A model generated the notes under the pieces. That model was not told where the DNA came from, searched no databases, and saw nothing but the letters and a program-made list of their open reading frames with translations. A DNA stretch of 64,000 nucleotides from Pseudohalioglobus sediminis (lineage in GTDB: Bacteria; Pseudomonadota; Gammaproteobacteria; Pseudomonadales; Halieaceae), in contig NZ_VTUX01000001.1 in NCBI RefSeq assembly GCF_008370495.1, positions 682,001 through 746,000 of the forward strand. The letters are read 5' to 3'. The translations under genes were made by a program, and so were the position numbers. Each line of letters opens with the position of its first letter. The stretch's first letter is position 1. Positions 33,912 through 50,670 of this stretch are shown here, piece after piece.

Positions 33912-34085
33912 CACAATTCCCGGCAACCTCGTTTGCTGTTCTTGTCACGTCCCAGAGCACAGTATCAGCGATTGGGCATAAAACCCCAAGCCTGCATAAC
34001 TGCACTTTTTGCCCAATATTGCTGGTTGCGTAAAACACCCTGTGATTCAATCATCGTCAACAGAAAAACAAGGCGTGTTAGACAC

Positions 34086-35199: not shown

Positions 35200-35601
35200 T
35201 TAGCTTTGGCTACTGATAATGTGGATATGGGGAGGGGAATCGGCGCTGGGCTCCAGCAATTTGAGGCGCGCGGGCACACCGCTGGCGAGTAACTCGGCGG
35301 CCTGCTCCACGGAACTCATCAACATATGCAGCGAGAGCGACGCCCTGGCTTCACGGCTACCGAGCATCTCGACAAATCCTGACACATCCTGCTGGGGCAG
35401 GTAGCCCAGCATGACCGCGTTGGTCAGGTAATCCCGGATGATCTGGCGATTGACCTGGTCCTGGAGATACACCTGGTAGCCATCGTCCCCGAACACACGC
35501 ATCAGCACATCCCGATCGTTTTCGTCGAGATCCACAGAAGTGAAAGGCGGTGTTTCACCAAATGCGGTATCGATCTGTTCTACCAGTTTATCCAGTCTCA
35601 A
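35200..35601 (-). CDS. Unknown protein, last gene of the chemosensory operon
   Basis: A 133-residue, mostly helical acidic protein (MRLDKLVEQIDTAFGETPPF, SLHMLMSSVEQAAELL). Not recognised; no CheW, receiver or Hpt motif. It begins 29 bases after the CheW-like gene's stop, on the same strand, and is probably cotranscribed, so it may be an accessory of the array (inference). Confidence 0.65.
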   Translation of the reverse strand: MRLDKLVEQIDTAFGETPPFTSVDLDENDRDVLMRVFGDDGYQVYLQDQVNRQIIRDYLTNAVMLGYLPQQDVSGFVEMLGSREARASLSLHMLMSSVEQAAELLASGVPARLKLLEPSADSPPHIHIISSQS

Positions 35602-35630: not shown

Positions 35631-36074
35631 TCAGGCTGACGCGGCGCTATCAATATTAACAGCCAGACGTTGCAGTGCCGGTAGATCCGGCACCTGGTAG
35701 GTCTGGCCTTCGAGTTCAAATGCTGCCAGGCAATGCTCCTGGACGGCGTCCGGCCGGTCCTGGCAGTCTGATTCCTGCAGGTCACGCATGGCCAGACCGC
35801 GACCGCGCAGGGCCACACCCCAGTAGTCGTAGCCCGGCCCACTGACACCAAGGATCACAGCTACCAGCCCGGTACCGCTCTGGGCGTCCACCCAGGGTGC
35901 CTCGCCGTCAGCGCCGAAGTCCAGCACAGGGATATCAACATCACGCCACCTGACCTCGCCCGGGGGCTTGCCGCCATCGGCAGGCAGGGTCAGGATTTCA
36001 CCCAGGCAGTTCTGCGGAATCGCCCAACGCCTGTTGGGCGCGCAGGGCAACAACACACACATACGTTCTTTCAT
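35631..36074 (-). CDS. CheW-like protein (ChpC-like)
   Basis: A 147-residue CheW-fold adaptor that would couple receptor to kinase. It begins MKERMCVLLPCAPNRRWAIP and has WRDVDIPVLDFGA and YDYWGVALRG, as in ChpC-type CheW proteins of Pil-Chp clusters; the full CheW consensus is weak. It starts four bases after the kinase gene's stop. Confidence 0.75.
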   Translation of the reverse strand: MKERMCVLLPCAPNRRWAIPQNCLGEILTLPADGGKPPGEVRWRDVDIPVLDFGADGEAPWVDAQSGTGLVAVILGVSGPGYDYWGVALRGRGLAMRDLQESDCQDRPDAVQEHCLAAFELEGQTYQVPDLPALQRLAVNIDSAASA

Positions 36075-36078
36075 GACC

Positions 36079-39000
36079 CTAGCTCAGTTCCAGCCGATGG
36101 CCAGTCAATTCGTTGATCTGGCCAATCAGCATGCGGAAATTGAAGGGCTTGCCCATGTATCCATTGCAGCCCGCCTCTTCAGCCATAGTACGGTGCTTGA
36201 TCCCGGTGCGCGAGGTCACCATGATCACCGGAATGTGGCTGTAGCGCGCCGACTTGCGGATCTCGCGCAGGGTCTGAATGCCATCTTTCACCGGCATCTC
36301 AACGTCGAGCAGGATTACATCGGGCAGATGCTCCGTGGTATTGAGCCAATCGATCGCCACCGCCCCGTTCTCGGCCGTAGCGGTCTCTATACCCACTGTT
36401 TCCAACTGGCTGGTCGCCACCATGCGCTGGGTGCGCGAATCATCGACCACCAGCGCGAGGAACTTCTCTTCCTCGGGCTGATCGACAGCCACCAGGGTGC
36501 CCTGGCCGTCAGCGAAACAACTCACCAGCACGTTCAGGTCCAAGGCGACAACCGCCTCACCATCTGCGGTGGTGGCAGCACCGGCGACGCCAGGAACAGA
36601 GGCGAACTGTGCGCCAAGCGAACGGATAACCAGTTCCAGTGCTTCCTCTACGTCGTCAATGGCAATTGCCATGTAGCGCGCGTCCGAGCCGGCAATGATG
36701 ACCGGCACATTGTGACGCCAGGAGGCGCGGTCCGGCAGGTTGCCACTCTGGCACAGCGTGCCCAGGTATGCGGGCTCACATTCCATGCCAGACATGAGCA
36801 GCTTGTCACCGTTCTCGACGGCGTTGAAAAAGTCATCGACGGATACTTCATCCACCGCTACCAGCCCGCCCAGGGGAATGGCATAGGAGTTGTCACTGGC
36901 AGTTACCAGCAGCGCACCATTGACGGTGACGTTGGCCGGGACTCGGATATGGAAGGAGGTGCCCTTGCCGACCTCGGATTCGATGCGTATGTCGCCGCCC
37001 ATTTGCTGCAACTCGCTCATAACGATATCCATTCCGACTCCGCGCCCGGATATCTGGCTCAAGGTCTGCGCAGTGGAGAAACCCTTGTGGAAAATCAGGT
37101 TGCGCGCCTCGTCGTCGCTCAGTGAGTAGGCGTCCACATCCAGCCCCTTGCGAATGGCAGACTCGCGCATGGCATCGGGGTCGATGCCGCGGCCGTCGTC
37201 CGAGAGCACGATAACCGAGTCAGCGCCGGACATGCGCACGTCCACGGTAATCTGCCCCACCGAAGGTTTACCCTGCGCAGTGCGCTCCTCTGTTGTTTCA
37301 ATACCATGGTCCAGGGCGTTACGTACCATGTGCTCCAGTATGGTTTGGCAGCGTGCATAGTCATCGCGGTCCAGGGTACCGACCTCGTTGGCCACACGGA
37401 AGGCAACATCCTTACCCAGATCATTACTCACGGTGCGCACCAGGCGTCGAAGCCCCGGCATCAGTCGCGATACCGGCACCACTCGTGCGGCGCGGATGGT
37501 AGAGCCTATCGAGCCGATAACCGAGGACTGCTGCTTGAGCAGCGCCTCCGCCTGGGCATTGTGTCGGCTCGCCACTTCGATCAGATCGGCGAGATCCTCG
37601 ACACCCTCGCGCAGGATATTGGCCGCTTCCTGGAGTTCGGAGTACTGATCCATCTCCAGTGCATCCAGATCGCTGGCCCGGGAAGCGCCCTTGGCCCCGG
37701 CGTTGAACAGCGTACGATCGGCGATATCGGCAATGTGGGCGCGCACAGAAGAAAGGCGCCCCATCAACTCTGCGGTCGCGCGCTTGTTGCGATTGGTGCT
37801 TTGCGCAGTGCGCACACCCAGTTGCTGGGCCTGGTTGCTGAGGTTCAGCAACAGATCCAGTTTTTCCGAGGTGATGCGAACCGACTGCTGTGCAGCCAGT
37901 GCCCTGGCACCTTCGTCCGCCAGGCGCTTGTCTTCTTCCCTGCGCCGCTGATCCTTTTCCGGGCGGGCCACAGGAGCCGGCTGTACCGGCGCGGGTTCGG
38001 GCTGCGCCGCCTCGGCAGAAGTCACCTCGGCCGCAGCATCCGCTTCCTGAATGTCATCTTCCTGCGCCGGCACTTCCGCTTCATGGCCGGGGAACTCACT
38101 GAGGATATCCCTACGCTGGTCCTGTACGAAGTCCATGCCGCGTACCGCGGCATCAAGCCATGCATTAACGATGCGGAAGTAGTTGTGCTCCTCACCGGAT
38201 GCGGCACGCGGCATGCGCTCCAGCAAGGTCTCGAAGTTGTGGATGAGGGTGCCGTAGAAGTGCAATCCGACACCTTTGGCGATTCCCTTGATGGTATGCA
38301 GGATGCGCGTTACCTGCGTGTAACTCTGCTCATCGGCCGGGCTGGCTTCCCAGGCACTGACAGCATCTTCCAGCTTCTCAAGTTCAGAGGAGCCCTCCTC
38401 TATGAAAGCGTCAAGGAATTCCGCGAATATCTCGCCGCTACCGGGGCTGCTGTAGTGGAACTCAATACCCTGCGGAATACACCAGGACATATCTTCAGCG
38501 GTCTCGGCGACTTTCGGTATGGCAACGTCTGCCGGCTCTGTGCTTTCTGCTTCTGCAGCAACCAGCTCTTCGTTGGCGGATGTATCGACAAAGGCTTCAA
38601 CTTCAACGCCACATATCTCACCCGGCAACTCAACCTCAGAACCGAGGTCCTCAATCAGTTTGTCGATATCCTCAGCAGAAGCACCCTGCAACTCTTCCTC
38701 TTCGGAAAGCTCTGCTTCGAAGATATCCTCCTCGAATACCTGCAGCAGAACACTGTCGTCCTCTGCGCTCGTATCCGCGGCATCCGTAGCTGCGGCAGCC
38801 AGTGGCAGATCCCCTGCCGCCTGCTCATCCAGAGATAACTCGTCAACCGGCAGCACCAGTTCGTCCGCGCTGCTGACGACTTCCAGTGTCTCCAGCGATG
38901 TGTCGGTGTCGAAGCTGATTGCGCCTTCATCCACAAGCACGTCTTCAAGTTCCACAGCAAAGTCGTCGCTGCCGAAATCATCGAAAATGGCGTCTATTTC

Positions 39001-40635
39001 ATCATTCTCAGGCGACCAGGCTTCCGCTGTCGAAGCGACGTCCAGATCTTCCCCGAAAATATCCTCGCCGAAACCAGCGGGTTCAACCACGCTGAGCACC
39101 GGCGGCGTGGAAGCTGAATCAGCTTCTGTAACGGGCTCATCGAGGAACAGGCGATTACAGGTCTCACCAGTCTCGGCATCAGCCAGGCGCAGCATCACCG
39201 CGTCCAGCTGGGCCGTGTCCAAGCCTTCGAGCGCGGCCGGTATGCTGCCGCAGATGGCAACCACGGGCTCATAACCCTGTGCAGCGGCCGCCGCGCGTGT
39301 ATCGCTGTCTGTGGCGATCGATACGTCTGCCACAACGGCGTTACCGGGGCGACCCAGAGACACCAGGCGGGCACTGACTGCCGCATTTACTTCTTCCATG
39401 AAATTCGTCACACGTGGCGTGATCGCAACCATCAGGTCGTCGTCGAAGCCCTCCATGGCAACGAAGTCTTCGTGGAGGTCGAGATCGCTCTCCAGTTCAG
39501 GATCGACCGAGAATACCGGTGCCTCCAGTTCAAGCGACAACTCTTCCAGTTCCAGGTCGCCCGCTGCCAGATCGCTGCCGGCGATCAGGTAGTCATCGAA
39601 GGCCTCTTCGCCCTGAGGCGCGTCCACGCTGGCGACGTATGACTGCACGTCTGCAACCGGCAGGTCGGCCAGCAGTTCGTCATCGGCCAGGGGTTGCTCA
39701 ATGGCTGCAATCTCCCGGTCTTCGCTGTCACCCGGCTGCTCAAGGCCGGATTCGATCTCGATACTGTCTTCGCAACTCAACGACAGGGCATCGTCGTCCA
39801 GCGCTGCCGCCTCAGGCTCCTGCGGATAGGCCGCGACAGCGTCTTCTGCCACCAGCTGATCCAGCTCCTGCGCCATCTCTTCCTGCGCACTCTCTTCCTG
39901 AGCGCTAGCAGAAAGCCTGGCCGCCTGGGCGAACAGGTCGTCATTTTCCGCCTCTTCCGTGCCGGCATCCTGTATCGGCAGCATCGGCTCATCAGCTGCC
40001 GCAACCAGCGCATCAGGCTCCAGTGGTGCCTCCTCTTCGCTCTCATCTGCTCCGGTGGCAACAGCCTCTGTGTGCTCGACAGTCTCTGATACGGAAGCCG
40101 TCTCTTCTGTCGTGGGCGCCAGGTCGGGCCCTGACTCGGGTGCCGCCGCAACGGGTTCCTCTCGCACCACGCGCTTGACGACCAGATAGGCATCACCGAT
40201 ATCATCTTCGTCGGCCAAGCCAAGTATGTCGCTACCGTCATCCACGGCCGCGATGGCCGGTTCTCCGTTTTCATCCGTATGACGGGAAAACTCGATGGCC
40301 ATCAGACCGTCGAAAGCGGCCTGTTCATCCTCTGCATCAGCGCCGGCACCTGGCGCGCTGCTGTCGCCTTCCTCTGACAGCACAATTTCCTCGGCAATAT
40401 ATGTATCGAGGTCATCTGCACCGGCCCTGCCCCGGGTCATGGGTCTTGCGGCCACTTCGGCTTCATAGGCACTGAGCGTTGTTTCAGTGACCTTGCCGTC
40501 GATTTTGAACAGGTTCTCTTCGGGCTCGTCGCGGTCCATTTCCATCAACCACGTGAGCGTGCTCTCTTTGGAGCTCTCGAGTGTATCGGCCAACGGTTCT
40601 GCCGAAGTTACGGGATTTTCTTTGTCAGAATGCAC
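36079..40635 (-). CDS. chpA: ChpA-like hybrid CheA kinase, C-terminal part (Hpt, kinase, CheW, receiver)
   Basis: A 1518-residue chemosensory kinase. Residues 1-740 are very acidic and mostly look disordered, with one more compact block (about 400-485). An Hpt domain has H780 in HTIKGIAKG. The kinase core has its N box (EHMVRNALDHGIE, about 1105), G boxes (DDGRGIDPD; GRGVGMDIV) and the CheA ATP-lid. A CheW-like regulatory domain (about 1230-1370) and a C-terminal receiver with D1444 (LLDVEMPVKDG) complete it. GTG at 40635 has GGAGAG upstream. The Pseudomonas ChpA is one chain; here the N-terminal Hpt portion is encoded by the preceding gene. Confidence 0.93.
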   Translation of the reverse strand: MHSDKENPVTSAEPLADTLESSKESTLTWLMEMDRDEPEENLFKIDGKVTETTLSAYEAEVAARPMTRGRAGADDLDTYIAEEIVLSEEGDSSAPGAGADAEDEQAAFDGLMAIEFSRHTDENGEPAIAAVDDGSDILGLADEDDIGDAYLVVKRVVREEPVAAAPESGPDLAPTTEETASVSETVEHTEAVATGADESEEEAPLEPDALVAAADEPMLPIQDAGTEEAENDDLFAQAARLSASAQEESAQEEMAQELDQLVAEDAVAAYPQEPEAAALDDDALSLSCEDSIEIESGLEQPGDSEDREIAAIEQPLADDELLADLPVADVQSYVASVDAPQGEEAFDDYLIAGSDLAAGDLELEELSLELEAPVFSVDPELESDLDLHEDFVAMEGFDDDLMVAITPRVTNFMEEVNAAVSARLVSLGRPGNAVVADVSIATDSDTRAAAAAQGYEPVVAICGSIPAALEGLDTAQLDAVMLRLADAETGETCNRLFLDEPVTEADSASTPPVLSVVEPAGFGEDIFGEDLDVASTAEAWSPENDEIDAIFDDFGSDDFAVELEDVLVDEGAISFDTDTSLETLEVVSSADELVLPVDELSLDEQAAGDLPLAAAATDAADTSAEDDSVLLQVFEEDIFEAELSEEEELQGASAEDIDKLIEDLGSEVELPGEICGVEVEAFVDTSANEELVAAEAESTEPADVAIPKVAETAEDMSWCIPQGIEFHYSSPGSGEIFAEFLDAFIEEGSSELEKLEDAVSAWEASPADEQSYTQVTRILHTIKGIAKGVGLHFYGTLIHNFETLLERMPRAASGEEHNYFRIVNAWLDAAVRGMDFVQDQRRDILSEFPGHEAEVPAQEDDIQEADAAAEVTSAEAAQPEPAPVQPAPVARPEKDQRRREEDKRLADEGARALAAQQSVRITSEKLDLLLNLSNQAQQLGVRTAQSTNRNKRATAELMGRLSSVRAHIADIADRTLFNAGAKGASRASDLDALEMDQYSELQEAANILREGVEDLADLIEVASRHNAQAEALLKQQSSVIGSIGSTIRAARVVPVSRLMPGLRRLVRTVSNDLGKDVAFRVANEVGTLDRDDYARCQTILEHMVRNALDHGIETTEERTAQGKPSVGQITVDVRMSGADSVIVLSDDGRGIDPDAMRESAIRKGLDVDAYSLSDDEARNLIFHKGFSTAQTLSQISGRGVGMDIVMSELQQMGGDIRIESEVGKGTSFHIRVPANVTVNGALLVTASDNSYAIPLGGLVAVDEVSVDDFFNAVENGDKLLMSGMECEPAYLGTLCQSGNLPDRASWRHNVPVIIAGSDARYMAIAIDDVEEALELVIRSLGAQFASVPGVAGAATTADGEAVVALDLNVLVSCFADGQGTLVAVDQPEEEKFLALVVDDSRTQRMVATSQLETVGIETATAENGAVAIDWLNTTEHLPDVILLDVEMPVKDGIQTLREIRKSARYSHIPVIMVTSRTGIKHRTMAEEAGCNGYMGKPFNFRMLIGQINELTGHRLELS

Positions 40636-40667
40636 GTTTGCTCTCCATTATTTTTTGTCTGGGTCGC

Positions 40668-43079
40668 TTACTGGCCCAGGTTTTCGGAGACAGGCGCACC
40701 AGCCGCGCCACCGTGTACTTGGTCATCCACTTCGGGCATGCCGTCGGCGAGATCCTCGCCGGCACCTTCCGCCATGCGGAAAGCGCGATCTGTGAGCGTG
40801 CGCACCGGCGCAGCATCCCAGCTACCTGCATCTTTGTAGGATGCGATCAGTGCGGGTAACTCTCGCACCACGTCCTGTAGCAAAGCCTGCACGGCGCCGG
40901 ATGCTTCCAGGTCACCATCCAGAACCCTGTCCAACAGGTCCTGCATCGCCCAGCCAAGCTCACCAAGGATATTGGCGCCAACAGCGCGGCCATTACCCTT
41001 GAAGGTGTGGAAGTGGCGACGAATGTCACGCAGCAGCTGGTTGTTTTCAATATCCTCGAGCCAGGCCGGAGTCAGGCGGCTGATTTCGTCGACGATCTCT
41101 TCTGACTCTTCGAAGAACACCTCGCGAAACTCTGCCGGTACCTCGGCATCCTCGACATAGTGCTTAGGCTCGGTCCAGCTTGCTGTCGACACCTCGGCGC
41201 CGGCAGACAGGCCGCTGGCGTATTCATCCAGCTCGGCTGCGCGTTGCTCGGCAATGGCGAGCATGTGCGAGGTGTCATCCAGCGGGTCGATCACAGAACG
41301 CTGCAGGTGCAGCTCCAACTGCGCGAAGGCCTCGGCGAAGCAGCGGAACGCATCATCCTCGCGTACCTCACCCGCTTTGCTGGCGGCGGACAGCCAGCGC
41401 TGGCAATGCTCGATAATCTGCGCTTCACGTTCCATTCCGGCAAAGCCCAGCGCGCCGGATATTTCCGCGAGCAGCTCCAGGGACATATCGATCGCCTTGC
41501 GATCAGCGATGGTCTCCTGCTCGTTCAGGAAAACTTTGGCGAGATCGAAGAGGTGATCCAGGTCAGGCTTGCCCGCATCAGCATCGCGTACGGCGCTGCG
41601 CAGGTCTTCATGGCCCTGGTCGGTTTTATTCAGGTAGCGATTCAGCGCCACCGTCAGGCGCAGTGTGCTCTGCTCATCATTGGGCTTGCGGGCCAATGCG
41701 CTGGCAAGTTCCTTGCGGCGCAGGATCTGGTGCATGTAGTTCTCAACCAGGCCCATGTGACTGAAGGTGGCGTTGACCACGCTTTCACGCAATTCAAAGT
41801 CGCGACTGGAAAAAGAACTGGACAAGCCATGCTCGAGTTTGTGCTCGATATCCAGCTTAACGTCGACAATGCCGCGAATGATTTCGTTAATCATCTGGTT
41901 CAACTGCATCGGCGACTCGTTGTACACACCGCGGTAAAGCTTCTCCAGCCGGCTGGCTACCGATTGCAGCGAATCCGCGTGCGCCATCTGGCCAGCGGCT
42001 TCCAGGCGGTAGCCGGTGGCCTCGATGCCATCCAGCGCCTGCGCGGCCATAGCCACGTCACCGGTGCGTGCCGCTGCTGCCAGGTCCTGCGAATTAAGGT
42101 AATCCACCACGCCATTGAGTTGATCCAGAGCCGAGCTCAGGGCAGTGACCAGGGCATCCACGTGGATCAGGCCGCGATTAGCCTCTTCCAGCGTGCTGTC
42201 ATCGACCGCAAACACCTCGCGTATTTTCGAGATGTGCAGGGGCTTGGCTTTGCAACTGGCTATATAAAACAGCATCTGTTGCTGCAGGCTGTCGTAGTCA
42301 ACCGATTCATCGACACGCGCACCATTCTCTCGCGCGTACTTGATCATGAAGGCGCCCGACTTGAATATCTGCGCGATACACTCGTCAGGCACAATCAGGC
42401 CACCCGCCATACCTTCGCAGATACCGACCATGGTGAACCAGAAGCGCTCGGGCTGTGTGCCAGAGAACATGGTCTGCATCCGGCGCGAGATACGGGCCAC
42501 TGTTTTCATGCTCTCGACCATGTTCTTGCGGCGCAGGCCCATCTTGGCCATTTCCAGGTACAACGCCAGCATCACATTCGCGCGATTGCGTACTTCCTCG
42601 TCATCCGCAGGCGCGGCACCGGCCGTTATGCCCTGACCCTCCGGGATATCCATGTGGAAGAAGAACGCACGCGGACGCGGCCTCTCACCTATCCAGCGAC
42701 GCAGGTCATTCACATGCTGCTCAAGGCCCTGTCCGGTATCTGCGCGCGCATTCTGCGCATGCGCCAGGTAAGCCGGGAGCACCTTCAGTGCCTGCATCAG
42801 GCCACCCATGGTCAATTTGCGGCGTTCGCCAACCACCTTGTCCTTGTACAGGTAGTTGAGGCTGCGCTCCATTTCCAGGGTGAGCATCTCACCCTTGCGC
42901 ATACCCAGGGCCCTGAGGGTCGAGGTGATCTGGTGTACGGCCCACATGCATTGCAGGAGCGGGCGCTTCTGGTTGGGATCATTACTGTATTCCACCAGTG
43001 ATGCCTCGGCATTTTCGGCCTGCCGGTTCATCAGTCCCACTACCCATTTCAGGGCGACGATGTCAGTTTTACTGGCCAC
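40668..43079 (-). CDS. chpA: ChpA-like protein, N-terminal part (Hpt modules)
   Basis: An 803-residue helical protein that matches the N-terminal Hpt region of ChpA. The last Hpt has a classical phosphoacceptor, H691 in FHTFKGNGRAVGA. Near the N-terminus MWAVHQITSTLRALG looks like a degenerate Hpt. There is no kinase or receiver domain. GTG at 43079 has GGAGG seven bases upstream. It stops 32 bases before the start of the kinase gene, which has its own good ribosome-binding site, so this is a true two-gene arrangement rather than a simple frameshift. Confidence 0.85.
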   Translation of the reverse strand: MASKTDIVALKWVVGLMNRQAENAEASLVEYSNDPNQKRPLLQCMWAVHQITSTLRALGMRKGEMLTLEMERSLNYLYKDKVVGERRKLTMGGLMQALKVLPAYLAHAQNARADTGQGLEQHVNDLRRWIGERPRPRAFFFHMDIPEGQGITAGAAPADDEEVRNRANVMLALYLEMAKMGLRRKNMVESMKTVARISRRMQTMFSGTQPERFWFTMVGICEGMAGGLIVPDECIAQIFKSGAFMIKYARENGARVDESVDYDSLQQQMLFYIASCKAKPLHISKIREVFAVDDSTLEEANRGLIHVDALVTALSSALDQLNGVVDYLNSQDLAAAARTGDVAMAAQALDGIEATGYRLEAAGQMAHADSLQSVASRLEKLYRGVYNESPMQLNQMINEIIRGIVDVKLDIEHKLEHGLSSSFSSRDFELRESVVNATFSHMGLVENYMHQILRRKELASALARKPNDEQSTLRLTVALNRYLNKTDQGHEDLRSAVRDADAGKPDLDHLFDLAKVFLNEQETIADRKAIDMSLELLAEISGALGFAGMEREAQIIEHCQRWLSAASKAGEVREDDAFRCFAEAFAQLELHLQRSVIDPLDDTSHMLAIAEQRAAELDEYASGLSAGAEVSTASWTEPKHYVEDAEVPAEFREVFFEESEEIVDEISRLTPAWLEDIENNQLLRDIRRHFHTFKGNGRAVGANILGELGWAMQDLLDRVLDGDLEASGAVQALLQDVVRELPALIASYKDAGSWDAAPVRTLTDRAFRMAEGAGEDLADGMPEVDDQVHGGAAGAPVSENLGQ

Positions 43080-43141
43080 TACTAAACCTCCGGTTCTAGT
43101 ATGCACAGGGACGGGGCATGGACCCGATCAATCCCCAGCTC

Positions 43142-45241
43142 TTATAGAGAAGCTCGTGCTTTCTCGGCGCTTTCAAGCGCACTCATTTCTTCTTCGCGAT
43201 AGACCTGGGTCGCAGCGCGTATGCTCTCCAGTTCGTTCACATCCCCTTCAGACTCGACCGCTGCCTGGTACGCACTGTTACCATCGATGCGGAACTGGCC
43301 AAGATTCTGTGCCGCTTCACGCATTGAACGCTGCAGCGAATTGACGCCTTTTTGCGCTGTTTCGTTGAGCTCGCTGATTTCCAGGTTACGCTCACGGATC
43401 TCTGCCATGGAACTGCTCATATGCAGCGCGTTCACCGCAGACTGTCCGGCGGCATCATCCACGTTGCGGATAATCTCGCTGATGGCGTCCGAGCCGGCGT
43501 TGATTTCCTCAAGGGAGGTATCGAGACGGTCGATATACTCGAGAATGGTGACAACCGTACCCACCGTGTTTTCCATACTCGCGAGGTTATCGGCAGACAT
43601 GTTCTGCAGCATGCGCACCTCGGAAATAATCTTGCGACCCTCTTCCTCGGCTTCGCGCAGCAGGTCTGCAATAGACTCGGCAATGCCCAGGAAAGGACGG
43701 CCATATTCGCCTGCCTTCTCCGCCTCGATACGGGTATTGATCGCAACAACCGATATCTTGGTGTTCAGGGCCTGGATATATTCCGCGGCGGCGGTAACGG
43801 ACTGAATCAGTTCACCCTGGCGCTTGGCAGACTTGGACGTCTCCTGCACTGACTCCCGCACGTCCGCTGAGGCCTTGGACATGTCCTGCGTGAGTTCATA
43901 GCCGCGTGCAACGGTCTTACAGTTGCGCTCCGAAGTCTCGGATGCTTCCGCTGTCGACTGCTTGATCTCTTCACTGGTGCGCACCATCTCAGTGGCAGTT
44001 TCCGTGGACTCCACAACTGAACGGGTCAGCTCACGCCCCTTCTCGACCTGTGCCTGCGCGCTGGCGCCAATACTGTCAATCGCATCCACGGCGGCCTCGA
44101 AAGGCATGCGGATGTCGCGGATCAGCGCGCACTGGTTTTGCACAGCCTTGTTCAGGCCCTGGGCAATACCACTGGTGACCGAGTTTTGTTCTGTCGCAGT
44201 CACCGTGAGGTCACCCTTGGAGACCTGCTCGAGTACGGTATTCACTTCAGCGACGCCACGCGCGGTATAAACTTCGCGACGACGCTGGCCAACCAACAGT
44301 ACGATCAGCAGACCAAGTGCCAGCAGCCCCGGCGCTACGAACAGTACCAGCAGGTTACCGGCGCCGTAGAGCCGGCCAACTGCCAGGTTGGACACTGCCG
44401 GCTGCAGTGCCGCAATTGCATCGTTGAGTGCGATACTGTTTTCGGCAATGGCTTGCCGTGCCAGTGCTGCCTGGCGCAGCTCAGTAGACGCGCCGGTAAT
44501 GCGGTCGACCGAAGTGGATACGCCAGAGAACATACGGAATGCGTTGCTCAGTGCCTCGATGGCAGAGGTGTTGGTCACCTTGTTGATACCAATCAGTTCG
44601 TCGCCCCGGGTCAGGCCCTCGATGATGCGGAAGAAATCTGCCGCATCGGAGCTGAACTCGTCGGCTGCCACCTGGCTGTTGCTGCCACCTTCAAGCGTAC
44701 GATCCACGTTCCTGAGCATGCGTTCAAGCAACCAGGGCGCTTTTTGCGCGGCTATCAGTGTCTCGGTGGACACATTCTGTCGCTGCAATACCGTCACCAC
44801 CGAGGTCAGTTCCCGCTGCATGGGTTTGACATTTTTCTCCAGCTCTGTGGCCACACCCTGGACAAACACGACCCTGGGGGAAGCATCCACCAGCGTCTGG
44901 GAAGCCCGCTTGATGGGCTGCCAGCTGAGATCCACCATGCTGATTTCGTCGTTCAGCTCAGGCGCATCAAACACGGCCAATTGCGTTTCAAACTGGGCCA
45001 CTCGCTCAGACAGCCGTGCAAATGCCTGCTCCTGACCGGACCGCGTATCCTGTGCGCTGATTGCAACCTGCCGGGCCAACGTGGCCAGCTCATCGGCCGC
45101 CGCGGTATATTGCCCTTCTTTACCCGACTCCTTCTGGATGACGAAGAAGCTGTAGGCTACCCCACACAGGCAGGCCACTATGCCGACCCCCATCAACAGG
45201 GTGCGCATTTTACCGGCGCTTAATCTGTCGCTCTTAATCAT
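43142..45241 (-). CDS. pilJ: PilJ-like methyl-accepting chemoreceptor
   Basis: A 699-residue receptor. Membrane segments at about 12-35 and 315-340 bracket a periplasmic PilJ-type helical domain. HAMP and a long cytoplasmic coiled coil follow. The signalling tip reads AINTRIEAEKAGEYGRPFLG, which is different from the usual ALNAAIEAARAGE-G-RGF; the E-x-GR core is kept but flanks differ. The ATG at 45241 overlaps the pilI stop by eight bases. No CheR or CheB gene is in the cluster. Confidence 0.85.
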   Translation of the reverse strand: MIKSDRLSAGKMRTLLMGVGIVACLCGVAYSFFVIQKESGKEGQYTAAADELATLARQVAISAQDTRSGQEQAFARLSERVAQFETQLAVFDAPELNDEISMVDLSWQPIKRASQTLVDASPRVVFVQGVATELEKNVKPMQRELTSVVTVLQRQNVSTETLIAAQKAPWLLERMLRNVDRTLEGGSNSQVAADEFSSDAADFFRIIEGLTRGDELIGINKVTNTSAIEALSNAFRMFSGVSTSVDRITGASTELRQAALARQAIAENSIALNDAIAALQPAVSNLAVGRLYGAGNLLVLFVAPGLLALGLLIVLLVGQRRREVYTARGVAEVNTVLEQVSKGDLTVTATEQNSVTSGIAQGLNKAVQNQCALIRDIRMPFEAAVDAIDSIGASAQAQVEKGRELTRSVVESTETATEMVRTSEEIKQSTAEASETSERNCKTVARGYELTQDMSKASADVRESVQETSKSAKRQGELIQSVTAAAEYIQALNTKISVVAINTRIEAEKAGEYGRPFLGIAESIADLLREAEEEGRKIISEVRMLQNMSADNLASMENTVGTVVTILEYIDRLDTSLEEINAGSDAISEIIRNVDDAAGQSAVNALHMSSSMAEIRERNLEISELNETAQKGVNSLQRSMREAAQNLGQFRIDGNSAYQAAVESEGDVNELESIRAATQVYREEEMSALESAEKARASL

Positions 45242-45800
45242 TGCTTTGTTCCTCGCGTGAATAAGGGTCATTAGCTGCGGCGTTTGACAGGTCTTCGTCC
45301 GCAATCAGTTTGTCAATATCAAGTACCGCCAGGAATCGATCCTGGTCGGCAAATCCGCCGAGCGTGTACTCGGCAAAATCGGGATCCACCGGGATAGCCA
45401 TGTCGCGTTGCTCAACCGGGAACTTCATGTCGCGCTCGAGCCCACTCAGGGTGATACCAAAGTAGAATCCGGGGCGGCGCAGCACCATGCAGTAATCCCG
45501 GGCTCGCCCGGAGTAGGGGCGCTGTCGAAAAAAGACGTCGCCACTGATAATCGGAATCAGGCCGCCCATGTGCGAGCCGACACCCAGTACCCAGGGCTTG
45601 GTGCCCGGAATCGCCATAACGTTGGGTGTTTCAATAATCTCTTCGAGCTCGCCCTCGCCGATCAGCAGCGGCACGCCGGCGATGCTCAGGCAGGTGCCAA
45701 ACCACTGCATGCTGTCGAGCAGTTTCACCGGCGCTTCCACCGCCTCGTTGCGATAGCGAAGCTCGAGCTGGTCAAGAGCCTGTAGGGCGAGGTTAGCCAT
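45234..45800 (-). CDS. pilI: PilI-like CheW protein
   Basis: A 188-residue CheW-type adaptor. LDSMQWFGTCLSIAGVPLLI begins the CheW fold, and IPGTKPWVLGVGSHMGGLIP is close in pattern to the LPGVKTWVKGVANVRGRLLP of Pseudomonas PilI. It lies between the receiver gene and pilJ, its usual place in Pil-Chp clusters. Spacing is four bases to the receiver gene and an overlap of eight bases with pilJ. Confidence 0.85.
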   Translation of the reverse strand: MANLALQALDQLELRYRNEAVEAPVKLLDSMQWFGTCLSIAGVPLLIGEGELEEIIETPNVMAIPGTKPWVLGVGSHMGGLIPIISGDVFFRQRPYSGRARDYCMVLRRPGFYFGITLSGLERDMKFPVEQRDMAIPVDPDFAEYTLGGFADQDRFLAVLDIDKLIADEDLSNAAANDPYSREEQSND

Positions 45801-45804
45801 CGAA

Positions 45805-46215
45805 TCAGGCAGCCCGACGCTGCTTGGTGTGATTGAAAATCAACTGGCGCAGGACGCTCTCGGGCGGAATCTTGGTCACGTGGGCAGTGGCACCGCGGGC
45901 CTGCCCTTTGGCGATATCAAAGATGCCGTCCGAAGACGAAAGCATCACCACCGGGGTATCACGCGTATCTTCAGCATTACGGATCAGGGTGCAGGTCTGG
46001 TAGCCGTCGAGTTCCGGCATGGTGATATCCAGGAATATCAGGTCGGGCTTGAAGCGGCGGAGCATGCCCAGCGCCTTGTAGCCATCCTCGGCACATTCGA
46101 CTTCGCAGCCCATGCCTTTGAGCGTGTGCGACATCATCATCCTGATGGTCTTGGCGTCGTCAACGATGGCTATCTTTACGCCGCTGATGTCCATCTCTTC
46201 GAGTTGTTCGTTCAT
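45805..46215 (-). CDS. pilG: PilG-like response regulator
   Basis: A 136-residue single receiver domain. Acidic pair D19/D20, phosphoacceptor D63 (FLDITMPELDG) and K115 are present, and DGYQTC-LIRNAED and MLSSSDGIFDIAKG match PilG closely. There is no separate PilH receiver in the cluster. In Pseudomonas PilG acts on pilus extension and cAMP synthesis. AGTGAGGG precedes the ATG, and a CRP-type site lies 24 bases upstream of it. Confidence 0.88.
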   Translation of the reverse strand: MNEQLEEMDISGVKIAIVDDAKTIRMMMSHTLKGMGCEVECAEDGYKALGMLRRFKPDLIFLDITMPELDGYQTCTLIRNAEDTRDTPVVMLSSSDGIFDIAKGQARGATAHVTKIPPESVLRQLIFNHTKQRRAA

Positions 46216-46255: not shown

Positions 46256-46304
46256 TGGGTTATTGCCAGCACAGTATTTCGATGACTGGGTAGCCTCAGC
46301 AACC

Positions 46305-46325
46305 AAAAACTGGAGTTTTCTCCAG
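46305..46325 (-). terminator. Rho-independent terminator between the 46.4-kb gene and pilG
   Basis: On the minus strand CTGGAG (46325-46320), a loop of four A, CTCCAG (46315-46310) and five T (46309-46305) form a short classical terminator that separates the upstream gene from the chemosensory operon. Confidence 0.7.
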
Positions 46326-46425: not shown

Positions 46426-46442
46426 AGCGGCAAAAAGCCGCT
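46426..46442 (-). terminator. Weak hairpin at the stop of the 46.4-kb gene
   Basis: A 6-bp stem AGCGGC / GCCGCT with a 5-base loop overlaps the stop codon; it is followed by only TTTCC on the minus strand. Confidence 0.4.
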
Positions 46443-47017
46443 CAATCGCTGGGGAACATGTAGTTCCTGAAGGGTTCCAGATGGCCCGGCTGGAAGTCCT
46501 GGGCCTCGTAGATATTGAATTTGTGCATCAGGCCTAGGCAGCGCTGGAAGGCCTTGTCTGCATCGTAGCTCGAAGGGGGGATACCGTACTCTTCTGTTAC
46601 CTGGGCAAAGATCAGCGAGGCAATTTCACGCCTGGCCTGGTCCTTGCGATACATGGCGTGGTTGACCGGCGAAGACACGACAGGCGACCCATAAATCAGG
46701 AACGCCTCCCAGCGCTCCACGTCCTGGCCTTCATCCAGCTGCGCAACCAGGAAGCGCACCATATTGCGCAGGTCCTCCCGTGGCGGCAGCACATCTTTCT
46801 GCAGCCATTTGCGAATATCGGCCTCGCGCCAACCGCTGTTGATCGCCAACACTCCCAGAACGCGCCCCTCAAATTGCGAGGGTGCCACGCCGGCCAGGTC
46901 CCAGAGCATGTTGAGGCGCGCCGAGAAACCGAGGCTGGGCGGCAGTTTGTCTTCCGCCAGCGCAGCATATTCCTGCGCGCAATCCTCGAGATTCTTGCTG
47001 TTCCTGTCTTCAGCCAT
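46442..47017 (-). CDS. Hypothetical protein
   Basis: A 191-residue soluble protein, not recognised. It has a possible helix-turn-helix-like stretch (about 70-95, SGWREADIRKWLQKDVLPPR). The ATG at 47017 is the first good start; an earlier start is open but not convincing. It begins 67 bases after the stop of the AAA+ gene on the same strand and may be cotranscribed with it. Confidence 0.6.
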   Translation of the reverse strand: MAEDRNSKNLEDCAQEYAALAEDKLPPSLGFSARLNMLWDLAGVAPSQFEGRVLGVLAINSGWREADIRKWLQKDVLPPREDLRNMVRFLVAQLDEGQDVERWEAFLIYGSPVVSSPVNHAMYRKDQARREIASLIFAQVTEEYGIPPSSYDADKAFQRCLGLMHKFNIYEAQDFQPGHLEPFRNYMFPSD

Positions 47018-47084
47018 GGTCACTGTGACTCCCGGGTCCCGGCTGCACGCGAAGGGCAGCATTCGCGCATAGTGTGGACACGCG

Positions 47085-49646
47085 CTAGCTTTCCTGCAAC
47101 TGTTGCTTGAGGCGTTTCTGGAATGTCGGTGTAGACACCCCCATAACCCTGGCCTTTTCTGCCATGGTCAGGCCCGAACACTGCTGCGCGATCAGTGTCA
47201 TCAGCATGGATTCGGCGATCTGCTGCGGCGGGCTTTCGCCAGGCGCCAGTTCCATAACCCATTGGCTGACCAGTTCGCGAGCCGACTGCCACAGCAGGCT
47301 GGTTTCGCGCTCTGCATCGCGCTCCCTGATCTTGGGCAGCCAGCGACCGATGTTGCGTGTGCGCGTCTGCAGGAATTCCGCCGCCCCGCGCGCATCGCCG
47401 CCACTGCGCTCGAGCGCGGCTTCAATAATTTCATCATCCAGCCAGCTACCGATTGGTCGCAATGCCTCGGTTTCCAGCATTGCCGCCAGAGCCTGGCCGA
47501 GCGCCAGTCGCAGCGCTTCCTCGGCTGATGGCAGGTATTCAGTTTCGACCTCGGTGGTCTCACTGCGCGCTTCCAGGAAGGAACGGTCGGTGCGCGCCAG
47601 CGCCTGCCCGTCAGCGGAAATACCGACGAACAGGCCGAGATCCACCGGTGTCACCCAGTCTTTATCCGTGCGTGCCAGCGCCTCCTGGATCACGGTGCGC
47701 ATCTCGCTGATATTGCCGGGCCACTTGTGCTTGAGCAGCGCCTGCTCCGCGTCCGGCGTGAAGCCCAGCACGCGCCGGTCCGACTGCGCGCTTTCCTGCT
47801 CGAGAATTTTGTGCGCCCAGCGCAATACTGCGCGTGGCCGCTCCCGCAGGGGAGGCACCGGAATCGGATATCCGGCGAATACGCTCGCCAAACGCGCATC
47901 CAGATCGCCCTTAGCGGCCAGTCGCTGCGGGCTCTCCGGCAACAACGCCACATAACGATTCGGCGCCAGGTAGCGGCTTTCACCCTCTTCCGTGGCGGTG
48001 CGTGAAGCCAACTGCCGGGCGAGCCTGGCCTGGATTTCAGGGTGCAGGAGCTGCGGTGATTTAAACACCAGCGTGCGTCCGCTACCGCGATGCAGCTCCT
48101 TGCTGATTCGCGACCACGCCTCGCGCCGATTGCGGAAACTGCGGCAATCGAGGCGCACCATGTCATCGGGCGCACCACCGGCCTCCGAATGGATCACCTG
48201 CGCCACGTACATCTTCCCGGTGCCGCGCTCCCCCACTACCGCAACCGGCAGATCAACCCGCGACAGGAACACGGCCTGGTCGATCGCTCCTTCCATGTTA
48301 TCCAGCACGTAGCCTTCAATGCCTTTCTCCATTTCGCGCGCCACGGGCATCACCGGGCCTGGCTCGGCCAGCGGGCCACCGCTGTGCCGGGTGGCGGCGA
48401 TTTTTTCGCCCAATTGCTGCAGGGCACTGGTCCCGGGCCGAAACCCGGGGCCTGTGTTCTGGCTGTCCTGCAAAACCAGGCAGCCCTGTAACCGGCCCCT
48501 GCTGCGCAGTGGCAAGGCCACGCAATTTTCGCCCAGGGGCCGTTCACGCCCGTCCAGTGCGGACGTCTGCAGTGCCCGCAGGGCTGCCTTGAGGTCTTTT
48601 GGCAAACGTCTCTCCGCCAGCACACTGGTGCCGCCGTCGTCGACCGCAACCGCACACAGTAAATCGAGGCTATCGCCACTGCCCACGCGCAGTAAGGCCG
48701 CCAGCGCCAGGCCGCCCTGGGACAGGGTCAACTCCAGCGCACGCTCGCTGTACTCTTCCAGCCGGCGGATACTGTCCTGCAGGGTGAGCAGTTCGGTAAG
48801 GTAGCGGCGCGCGCCCGCATCGACTTCGGCATCGCGAAATACGCCGGTTGCAGTCAGTGCGCGCGCAGCCTGGCCCAGGGGATCCCAGGGGCTGGAAAAA
48901 CGTATGCGTTCATCACCTCCCGCCTGGGCCTGCAGCAACGCGGTGTTGGCGCCAACCAGGGCAGTGAGGGCGGGCTGCTCACGCAGGCGCTGTGACAACC
49001 CGATACAGGCCCGGGCGCATTGCGCGCCGCCCTCCAGTCCGGCAAGCCCCTGGTGCAGGTGTGACAGCAGTGCCCTGCACACGTCCAGCGCGGCCTCGGG
49101 CTCAAGCCCGCGCAGGATTACCGTCAGTGTCGCGCCTTCCGGCAGCCCCAGCCAGTCGCCCTCCCGGAGCAACTGTTCCAGGCCACAGCGCAACTCCATC
49201 ATCAGGCCTTCCATCTCCGGCATGCCCCAGGTAGGGCTGAACTCCAGACGGTCGACACCGAGCACCGCGACCACGTCGTCATAGCCAATATGCTCATCCA
49301 CCGACAAACCCCATGGCAACGATAGCGGTCGCAGAAACAGGAGCCCGGCAGGAACACCGCCCCACTGTTGCGGCACCATCATGCCACCCATCAGGTAATC
49401 CCCGTCGGCACCGGCCCCAACCACGAGTGGCGGCAGAAAAGCCGCCACCCCGGCGGCAAGCGCGCGGTCTACTACCGCGGTACTGTCCCCGGCCACTGCC
49501 AGCGCATCACGCCAGTCGCGCCCCTCCAGACCCTCCGGCGTGACAAAGGGCAGCTCGCCATAGCTGCACAATACCGTGCCGCTATCGCGGGAGATAACCA
49601 GGAGGCAGCTGCCAATGCTGCGGTAGTGTTGTTCCAGAGTATTCAC
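47085..49646 (-). CDS. Divergent NtrC-like AAA+ protein with two Fis-like HTH segments
   Basis: An 853-residue regulator-like protein. The N-terminal third (about 1-420) has no match I know. The AAA+ part starts with Walker A GERGTGKMYVAQ (about 472-483). The expected GAFTGA loop and the Walker B DE are missing: the line corresponding to GTLFLDEI reads GRTLVFKSP. The arginine-finger-side motif PLRERPRAVLRWA is kept. Two helix-turn-helix-like stretches follow: LDDEIIEAALERSGGDARGA and SGLTMAEKARVMGVSTPTFQ. GTG at 49646 is preferred; ATG at 49697 is an alternative that would read through the -10 box. Confidence 0.75.
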   Translation of the reverse strand: MNTLEQHYRSIGSCLLVISRDSGTVLCSYGELPFVTPEGLEGRDWRDALAVAGDSTAVVDRALAAGVAAFLPPLVVGAGADGDYLMGGMMVPQQWGGVPAGLLFLRPLSLPWGLSVDEHIGYDDVVAVLGVDRLEFSPTWGMPEMEGLMMELRCGLEQLLREGDWLGLPEGATLTVILRGLEPEAALDVCRALLSHLHQGLAGLEGGAQCARACIGLSQRLREQPALTALVGANTALLQAQAGGDERIRFSSPWDPLGQAARALTATGVFRDAEVDAGARRYLTELLTLQDSIRRLEEYSERALELTLSQGGLALAALLRVGSGDSLDLLCAVAVDDGGTSVLAERRLPKDLKAALRALQTSALDGRERPLGENCVALPLRSRGRLQGCLVLQDSQNTGPGFRPGTSALQQLGEKIAATRHSGGPLAEPGPVMPVAREMEKGIEGYVLDNMEGAIDQAVFLSRVDLPVAVVGERGTGKMYVAQVIHSEAGGAPDDMVRLDCRSFRNRREAWSRISKELHRGSGRTLVFKSPQLLHPEIQARLARQLASRTATEEGESRYLAPNRYVALLPESPQRLAAKGDLDARLASVFAGYPIPVPPLRERPRAVLRWAHKILEQESAQSDRRVLGFTPDAEQALLKHKWPGNISEMRTVIQEALARTDKDWVTPVDLGLFVGISADGQALARTDRSFLEARSETTEVETEYLPSAEEALRLALGQALAAMLETEALRPIGSWLDDEIIEAALERSGGDARGAAEFLQTRTRNIGRWLPKIRERDAERETSLLWQSARELVSQWVMELAPGESPPQQIAESMLMTLIAQQCSGLTMAEKARVMGVSTPTFQKRLKQQLQES

Positions 49647-49652
49647 TGCGCC

Positions 49653-49682
49653 AGTATAGGTTAAGTATCGCAATGGTGTTAC
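49653..49682 (-). promoter_or_regulatory. Putative promoter of the AAA+ gene
   Basis: On the minus strand GTAACA (49682-49677) and TATACT (49658-49653) are separated by 18 bases. Transcription would start at or next to the GTG at 49646, so the mRNA could be leaderless. Confidence 0.4.
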
Positions 49683-49770: not shown

Positions 49771-50670
49771 TTGAACAAAAAGGCAGTTTACTGGACGCTG
49801 TTTGTGCTGGTCGTCACGGCAATGGCTCTGATCCAGTTTATCCCCTCAGCGCCGGTGCACATACCCGCGCAGTTGCCGCCGGAACAGCGGGCGGCAAATC
49901 GCCTGCTGGCATTCGAGGGTATCCATAACTTTCGCGATCTCGGCGGCTATCGCACGGCCGATGGCAAACAGGTGAAATGGGGCAGTCTCTATCGCTCCGC
50001 CAATCTCAGCGAGGCCAGTCGCGCCGACCTGCAGGTACTTGCGGACATGGACCTGCATGCGCTGGTTGACCTGCGCTCGCAGGCGGAACGCACAGAGGAA
50101 CCTGACAGGCTGCCGCAGCCGACAGGCTTCAAGGTCGTGGAGATACCGGTACTGGACGGCGGCGCCGAGGGCCTTGCGGACGAAATCACCGCGCGCATAG
50201 AAGATGGAACCATCGAAGCTTTCGACGCCGAGGGGTTTATGCTGGCAGCTAACCGGCAGTTTGCTGATGAATTCACCCCCCAGTTTACCGAGTTCATGCA
50301 GATCGTGGTGCAGGCGCGAGGGGAACCCGTCTTATGGCATTGCACAGCCGGCAAGGATCGCGCCGGCTTCGCGGCGGCCATTCTGCTGCGTGTCCTTGGC
50401 GTACCACAGGAGTTGGTGCTGCAGGACTACGTTTTAAGCAGGGACTACAGCCTGCAATCACACCGGCGTGAACTGATGCTGCTGAAGTTGTTCAAGGGCG
50501 ATGCAGTCGCCGAAAAGGTTTCCACGCTGCTGGGCGTCGAAGAGGCCTGGCTGCAGGCCGCTTTCGATGAAATCGACGCACGCTGGGGTGACTTTGACAG
50601 CTACGTCTCTGCGGGCCTGCAATTGAGCACAGCGGACGTGGCCACCCTGAGAGCGCACTTACTGGAATAA
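49771..50670 (+). CDS. Membrane-anchored tyrosine/serine phosphatase-like protein
   Basis: A 299-residue protein with an N-terminal anchor (residues about 5-27) and a dual-specificity-like phosphatase domain. The P-loop is HCTAGKDRAG with Cys191 and Arg197, and NFRDLGGY is the usual N-terminal motif of this family. It probably acts outside the cytoplasm on phosphoprotein or phosphoinositide-like substrates. The start is TTG at 49771 with a full GGAGGT in front. It is divergent from the AAA+ gene and 3 bases upstream of cardiolipin synthase. Confidence 0.88.
   Translation: MNKKAVYWTLFVLVVTAMALIQFIPSAPVHIPAQLPPEQRAANRLLAFEGIHNFRDLGGYRTADGKQVKWGSLYRSANLSEASRADLQVLADMDLHALVDLRSQAERTEEPDRLPQPTGFKVVEIPVLDGGAEGLADEITARIEDGTIEAFDAEGFMLAANRQFADEFTPQFTEFMQIVVQARGEPVLWHCTAGKDRAGFAAAILLRVLGVPQELVLQDYVLSRDYSLQSHRRELMLLKLFKGDAVAEKVSTLLGVEEAWLQAAFDEIDARWGDFDSYVSAGLQLSTADVATLRAHLLE

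Follow-up and report, generated by a model that had tools for sequence, protein, structure and literature searches.

A sigma54-activator relative with a disabled AAA+ domain, conserved in Halieaceae and linked to a Pil-Chp-like operon, may act as a transcription factor independent of ATP hydrolysis

In a 64,000-nt window of the Pseudohalioglobus sediminis genome (assembly GCF_008370495.1, contig NZ_VTUX01000001.1, positions 682,001 to 746,000; coordinates below are window positions), we characterized a gene encoding an 853-aa pseudo-enhancer-binding protein (pseudo-EBP) with the order PAS, degenerate GGDEF, GAF-like, inactive AAA+, helix-turn-helix (HTH) and second HTH (47085..49646, minus strand). 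The domains and motifs of this gene, its partner U206, the palindrome, the promoter and the PilG to CheA genes described below all lie on the minus strand. We consider it probable that pseudo-EBP is a transcription factor derived from a sigma54 activator, acting independently of ATP hydrolysis at a sigma70-type promoter, chiefly that of the pilG operon. The frame at 47085-49646 comprises 853 codons and a stop; the longest open reading frame (ORF) listed for it starts upstream, at a TTG at 49778 (897 aa), and a start at the GTG at 49646 agrees better with the homologues. A TATACT element resembling a -10 box (49646-49682) ends 7 nt before this likely GTG start, and given its placement the transcript may be leaderless.

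A homologue search in 97 genomes returned 40 with a match at E ≤1e-20, all from the window's own family. Thirty-six of them were taken as holding orthologues (E 4.4e-79 or better), the matches in G015, G020, G026 and G038 being different proteins, and 33 orthologues were aligned, leaving out those of G039 (fragmented), G050 (in-frame stop) and G060 (contig end). The inactive AAA+ domain was placed at residues 445-671 (47634..48314) by Pfam, alignment to NtrC1, conservation and fold match. The window copy matched the Pfam models Sigma54_activ_2 (2.5e-8), Sigma54_activat (9.3e-6, residues 450-504 only) and AAA_lid_14 (3.1e-11), and VIA-align matched residues 448-673 to NtrC1 (1ny5) with a Z of 23.4 and a root-mean-square deviation (rmsd) of 2.6 over 224 aligned residues. 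The family profile of pseudo-EBP also matched NtrC1 and PspF, which assigns the domain to the AAA+ sigma54-interaction fold. This domain dominated the VIA-align search; apart from two longer mixed alignments no match was listed outside residues ~447-699, and such silence does not show the absence of a fold. In the structure model (mean predicted local distance difference test score, pLDDT, of 67) the AAA+ and HTH parts scored mostly 70-90, and most of residues 108-275 fell below 50.

Walker A is intact, as the initial annotation had stated, reading GERGTGK at residues 472-478 (48213..48233) with GTGK in 33/33 homologues. The Walker B aspartate-glutamate pair, which had been reported to be Lys-Ser in the window copy, is indeed replaced by K529-S530 (48057..48062) when 'TLFLDEIG' of NtrC1 is aligned with 'TLVFKSPQ' of pseudo-EBP; the lysine is present in 33/33 homologues, and position 530 is serine in 28, tyrosine in 4 and cysteine in 1. 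The described absence of GAFTGA was borne out as well, pseudo-EBP being 14 residues shorter than NtrC1 in the stretch before Walker B that holds this loop. Further losses, beyond those first noted, were found at sensor I (ATN of NtrC1 aligned with LLP), at both arginine-finger positions (583 and 589, arginine in 0/33 homologues) and at sensor II (GNVREL aligned with GNISEM), where S647 (47706..47708) stands in place of the arginine and is serine in 30 and threonine in 3 of the 33 sequences. We take the roles of the sensor I, arginine-finger, sensor II and Walker positions to be those of the NtrC1/PspF residues. Pseudo-EBP has none of GAFTGA, the Walker B D-E pair, sensor I, the arginine fingers and sensor II that mark an active sigma54 EBP such as NtrC or PspF. 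None of the 33 homologues has the contact loop, and all of them lack most of the residues for ATP hydrolysis, so the claim that the protein cannot be a normal sigma54 activator stands, and an active sigma54 activator was rejected because of the missing motifs. Its AAA+ fold, absent GAFTGA and C-terminal HTH are those of a GAFTGA-less EBP relative.

Identity to the window copy ranges from 34 to 75% among the 32 homologues, and all 33 sequences share G475-T-G-K478, D500-C501, K529, P531 and a spacing of 28 residues from C501 to K529. Ratios of nonsynonymous to synonymous substitution rates (dN/dS, NG86) for five pairs were 0.03-0.14 in the AAA+ domain and 0.06-0.15 in the GGDEF domain; the HTH region gave 0.10-0.27 (four pairs; one more saturated) and the GAF-like part 0.28-0.46 (three pairs; two more saturated), all of these figures being rough since dS exceeded 1 in most pairs. 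Because the same replacements occur in 33/33 homologues and dN/dS is low, the AAA+ losses are old and selected. Many catalytic residues are gone, one copy (L080) is fragmented and that of G050 carries an in-frame stop, as would suit a recent pseudogene or a decaying sigma54 activator; with identical replacements across many genera and purifying selection on the domain, this explanation is extremely improbable, and recent decay was rejected. Homologues keeping Walker B and GAFTGA, which the initial annotation regarded as the sign of such decay, were not found among the 33. Orthologues occur in 36/61 genomes of the window's family, in 0/36 genomes of the order's other families and in none of 368 further genomes in a class-wide sample, for which up to four candidates were scored in each genome, and a wide distribution was therefore rejected. 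The named relatives are Pseudohalioglobus lutimaris, Mangrovimicrobium sediminis and strain HTCC2148, Pseudohalioglobus belonging to the Halieaceae.

Of the four weak matches, L081, L082 and L083 (in G038, G015 and G026) have canonical AAA+ motifs and, unlike pseudo-EBP, retain GESGTGKE, GAFTGA, DEIG, ATN and GNVREL intact. Model matches in L082 and L083 follow the order REC (receiver), PAS, GGDEF, AAA+ and HTH_8, and a further HTH-like segment closes the C-terminus; the receiver domain was seen in these two, L081 being truncated by a contig end. A fourth relative occurs in G052, the AAA+ motifs having been read in L081, L082 and L083 only (identifiers of the relatives: L081, L082, L083 and L158-L161 in G015, G026, G038 and G052). 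These REC-PAS-GGDEF-GAF-AAA+-HTH-HTH proteins are homologous to pseudo-EBP in the C-terminal module in G015, G026 and G038, where the C-terminal profile of the pseudo-family matched at E 3e-22 to 6e-20, and in the N-terminal module in G015, G026 and G052, where the N-terminal profile matched at E 9e-17 to 3e-13; the best ordinary EBP searched reached 0.003 with the C-terminal profile, and none appeared with the N-terminal one. No pseudo-EBP orthologue and no U206, the partner protein introduced below, was found in G015, G026, G038 and G052. Since the AAA+ motifs are intact in the three architecture-matching relatives in which they were read, an origin of pseudo-EBP from an apparently working sigma54-activator type of this domain order, or from a common ancestor with it, is probable. 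A separate receiver-AAA+-HTH protein, L084 in G020 (L084:9936-11756), keeps the Walker B D-E pair and lacks GAFTGA.

At the C-terminus, the initial annotation had placed two Fis-like HTH stretches. The first (residues ~739-775, 47322..47432) is supported as Fis-like by a weak HTH_8 match and predicted helices, with an E of 0.008 in the window copy, short of the model cut-off, and E ≤0.1 in 14/33 members. The second (residues ~820-850, 47097..47189) is indicated by predicted helices and conservation, including an invariant S-x-P-T, and its weak match was Xre-like only, so the Fis-like label does not extend to it. Residues R764, R768, W769, S838, P840 and T841 of the region are invariant in 33/33.

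The N-terminal region, described earlier as large and of unknown nature, instead resolves into PAS and degenerate GGDEF domains, on the basis of Pfam matches in homologues and the family profile, and a probable GAF domain; Pfam matched neither PAS nor GGDEF in the window copy by itself. The region is present in 19 of the 33 aligned homologues and missing in 14 core-only versions of ~420-500 aa, which makes the sensory domains dispensable. The PAS-like domain (residues ~1-108, 49323..49646) is based on the alignment and on PAS_4 matches in 5/33 members (E ≤0.1, best 9e-5), with residues 8-109 matched in L058. For the degenerate GGDEF domain (residues ~109-275, 48822..49322), PF00990 matched 13 of the 33 members, 19 of which have the region (E ≤0.1, best 9e-6), and the family profile matched solved GGDEF domains at 1.4e-6 at best. 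The GGDEF signature, EGATL in the window, is kept in none of the 19 rows, which does not fit an active diguanylate cyclase. Five residues before EGATL lies an I-site-like RxxD, R161-E-G-D164 (49155..49166), whose position is presumably that of the inhibitory/receptor I-site of diguanylate cyclases; arginine and aspartate at this spacing are kept in 18/19 homologues with the region, L086 being the exception, as expected of a degenerate-GGDEF receptor of cyclic di-GMP (c-di-GMP). The alignment is supported by the relatives L082 and L083, which show RGTD or RTSD at the same spot, followed five residues on by GGNVF or GGAVF. The domain between GGDEF and AAA+ (residues ~276-420, 48387..48821) is probably GAF, as suggested by its predicted alpha/beta pattern; the model has pLDDT blocks of 74-89 over 281-420, and residues 276-420 gave no PDB sequence match and no Pfam match. 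This part is the least constrained region and is missing in homologues of ~720-730 aa. A receiver-domain remnant (E 2e-4) was detected in the family member L059.

The gene directly downstream of pseudo-EBP encodes U206, a 206-aa protein of unknown family whose N-terminal half may be an Xre-type HTH (46442..47062). A U206-family protein of ~200 aa takes this place in 34/34 loci, and U206 is present in 36/36 genomes with a pseudo-EBP orthologue; across the order it was found in 10/390 genomes, all from family f1. Its identity to the window copy is 54-92% (28 homologues). The window member had no Pfam or NCBIfam match, 29 members compared with Pfam gave scattered chance-level matches only (E 0.03 or worse) with no Xre or other HTH family, and no PDB sequence matched up to E 10. 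The low-confidence model of U206 gave weak top matches (E 0.5 or worse) that include Xre-type Stl, C.EcoT38IS and lambda repressor. At a contig edge in G054, a fragment homologous to the tandem-HTH module is followed by a divergent U206 (37% identity; L147:1-1034).

In the window, the pair is followed by genes for a PilG-like response regulator (45805..46215; Response_reg 3.9e-23), a PilI-like CheW protein (45234..45800; CheW 8.5e-13), a PilJ-like chemoreceptor (43142..45304; MCPsignal 7.4e-9), an 812-aa Hpt protein similar to the N-terminal portion of ChpA (40668..43106; Hpt 2.5e-13) and a 1518-aa CheA/ChpA-like histidine kinase with Hpt, CheW and receiver domains recognised by Pfam (36079..40635). 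The Pil-Chp genes of Pseudomonas have a known order, and the window operon has PilG, PilI, PilJ and ChpA-like genes in the same order, as a Pil-Chp operon should; it differs in having ChpA in two parts and the pseudo-EBP/U206 pair in front. Over the 34 loci, PilG follows the pair in 32, Hpt and CheA in 31, and PilI and PilJ in 30, and an Hpt match was obtained in 33/36 orthologue genomes. In G013, G015, G025, G038 and G052 the Hpt protein aligns within one long ORF (1782-2066 aa), and ChpA-like function appears to be split over two proteins in the window (36079-43106). Both kinds of ChpA, split and single ORF, occur in G002, G003 and G014, and the pair was not seen at the two single-ORF ChpA loci opened (L149, L150). 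PilT was rejected as a discriminator, PilT-family genes being present in 60/60 genomes, including that of the window. Beyond the CheA gene, translations alone point to another CheW-like protein (35631-36074) and to an ORF of 133 aa that belongs to an unknown family (35200-35601).

Upstream of pilG we identified the palindrome CTGGAG-AAAA-CTCCAG (CTGGAG-W4-CTCCAG; 46310..46325) as a candidate operator, in register with a sigma70-like promoter (TTGCTG, 18 nt, AATACT; 46273..46302) at a gap of 7 nt. The window's genome has no other copy with ≤1 mismatch. Exact copies occur in 20/120 family genomes (reversed control 0/120) and, among the 61 genomes G000-G060, in 16/36 with an orthologue versus 1/25 without. 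The promoter layout accompanies 17/22 exact copies (in G464 and G466 judged by the layout alone); it is absent or incomplete at copies in G001, G035 and G052 and at second copies in G006 and G455. At the pilG position, the palindrome has ≤3 mismatches in 23/32 loci, 4-5 in three and 6-7, scored as absent, in six. We tabulated 28 sites, i.e., the 32 loci minus the six absent, plus G044 and G455. Read by eye, 27/28 sites have 7 nt between the palindrome and the TTG and G016 has 8 nt, and AATACT follows the TTG at 17-18 nt across loci. This palindrome-TTG spacing is held while the gap between U206 and pilG varies from ~0.1 to over 3 kb (0.7-3.8 kb in some). A genome-wide regulon defined by the palindrome was rejected, as the off-pilG hits viewed in L113-L116, L121, L122, L151 and L155 lack the promoter layout. 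In G455 a second exact palindrome (L154:8742-8757) with a T-run and a partial layout (TGGCGG, 18 nt, TAGAGT) precedes a divergent msrA-like gene by ~0.1 kb, with no obvious nearby gene on the palindrome strand, and is a possible second target.

Several observations weigh against pseudo-EBP as the regulator of the pilG promoter through this palindrome. The palindrome is absent at pilG in G017, G023, G033, G039, G048 and G059, which keep the gene pair and the operon genes; each of the 32 loci also has, away from this position, a match with 2-5 mismatches at best, and the case for the weaker sites therefore depends on their fixed position. A stricter consensus promoter scan did not call the pilG promoter, and a terminator scan scored the palindrome as a terminator-like hairpin. 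In G022 and G049 (550 and 260 contigs), ChpA is of the split type and the pair went undetected. G036 holds the pair next to gyrB with chp genes absent within 20 kb (L148:9316-11222; recF-gyrB on one side, a lytic-transglycosylase-like gene and glyQS on the other, named from their proteins), and no Hpt hit was obtained in G036 and G050 (genomes 70 and 60% complete); given these two genomes, the chp operon may not be the sole role of the pair. The hairpin score raises the explanation that the palindrome is an intrinsic terminator of an upstream transcript, with its 6-bp stem, 4-nt loop and T-run. Over the 28 sites, however, the 168 arm pairs comprise 141 consensus, 2 wobble and 25 broken pairs with 0 compensated; without G016 and G058, whose register is doubtful, 19/156 are broken and again 0 compensated. 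The promoter-side arm is perfect in 23/28 sites and the other arm in 19, and the distance to TTG stays fixed despite the variable distance to U206. Because the changes are uncompensated and the promoter distance is fixed, a DNA site is favoured over a hairpin, and we regard a terminator as unlikely.

The initial annotation had left the choice between a DNA-binding regulator and a scaffold, either one built on an inactive ATPase fold. The sequence data favour the DNA-binding regulator, since the tandem HTH region is conserved and a conserved palindrome stands at the adjacent operon promoter. A structural or scaffold protein of the chemosensory array, with the AAA+ domain as an oligomerisation platform for U206 and the HTHs as relics, would suit the tight linkage to the PilG, PilI, PilJ, Hpt and CheA genes, the fact that DNA binding is predicted only, and the core-only forms; it accords poorly with the six invariant HTH residues, the low dN/dS of the HTH region in the four unsaturated pairs, the operon palindrome and the pair kept in G036 away from chp genes, and is improbable in our judgement. 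We are somewhat less dismissive of U206 as the reader of the palindrome with the AAA+ protein as its sensor or co-regulator, a further point against pseudo-EBP itself binding the site, and consider it doubtful. U206 is the better conserved of the two, several of its weak model matches are Xre-type DNA-binding proteins, and the HTH regions of both proteins differ in palindrome-less genomes; all its structural matches nevertheless fall short of E 0.001, and the tandem HTH of its partner is an equally good reader. The HTH changes give little guidance between them, as both proteins change and L074 does not fit.

A pseudo-EBP acting at the pilG promoter would descend from an activator whose sigma54 contact loop and residues for ATP hydrolysis disappeared, and its tandem HTH region, alone or with U206, would bind the palindrome and thereby set the level of chemosensory proteins from the sigma70-like promoter. 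The P-loop may still bind nucleotide or hold an oligomer without turnover, U206 would act as a constant partner, and the PAS/GGDEF/GAF part, where present, may tune the protein, perhaps via c-di-GMP. Judged by its translation alone, the gene at 31593-33926, downstream of the chemosensory operon, encodes a membrane GGDEF-EAL protein whose GGDEF signature is intact, a possible local source or sink of c-di-GMP. This proposal draws on sequence comparison, namely on the losses and their conservation, the domain make-up (the GAF domain being predicted), the U206 pairing, the operon linkage, the constant spacing between the palindrome and a sigma70-like pilG promoter, and the finding of relatives whose motifs are intact. 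More tentatively, and with considerable reservation, we put forward a new transcription-factor class, in which a pseudo-AAA+ protein with an invariant Walker B lysine senses c-di-GMP via the degenerate GGDEF I-site in its long forms and forms one complex with the equally conserved U206 on a single operator, coupling c-di-GMP to the amount of the pilus-type chemosensory system at a sigma70 promoter.

GAFTGA-less EBP relatives that use sigma70 are already known. Rhodobacter capsulatus NtrC, HupR, TyrR and DhaR have no working GAFTGA, the element being lost or deleted, and are reported to act at sigma70 promoters (PMC10274813, PMC3162934). VpsR, also without a working GAFTGA, is reported to act in vitro together with c-di-GMP and the sigma70 form of RNA polymerase (PMC9303241), although it has been described as sigma54-dependent too. 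VpsR of Vibrio cholerae (7v2b) shares with pseudo-EBP the EBP fold and the absence of a normal GAFTGA element, with a VIA-align Z of 21.4 (rmsd 3.5, 224 aligned) and a profile E of 1.9e-17. It has other N-terminal domains, and we know of no tandem HTH in VpsR. Pseudo-EBP differs further in its lost sensors and arginine fingers and in its operon linkage to Chp genes. From R. capsulatus NtrC and its group, pseudo-EBP differs in its lost sensor residues and, in the long forms, in having PAS-GGDEF-GAF where NtrC has a receiver domain; its invariant lysine in place of the Walker B aspartate may be a further difference. A literature search gave no title or abstract opening on the pseudo-EBP gene or its Chp link; as far as this search shows, the new features are the invariant Walker B lysine, the combined sensor loss, an architecture that includes GGDEF, the pairing with U206 and the link to Chp.

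Thus, one bacterial family holds both an intact sigma54-activator type and an architecturally matching relative in which the ATPase was disabled and has since been conserved in that state, with only the AAA+ and HTH parts left in some genera. This pairing permits a direct test of the role of the AAA+ fold in a regulator after the loss of hydrolysis. For a Pil-Chp-like operon, our analysis points to a predicted regulator and a candidate operator; it also brings out a 206-aa family that is highly conserved and had no relative among Pfam, NCBIfam and PDB sequences. Pseudo-EBP suggests a recycled regulator that works without ATP hydrolysis.

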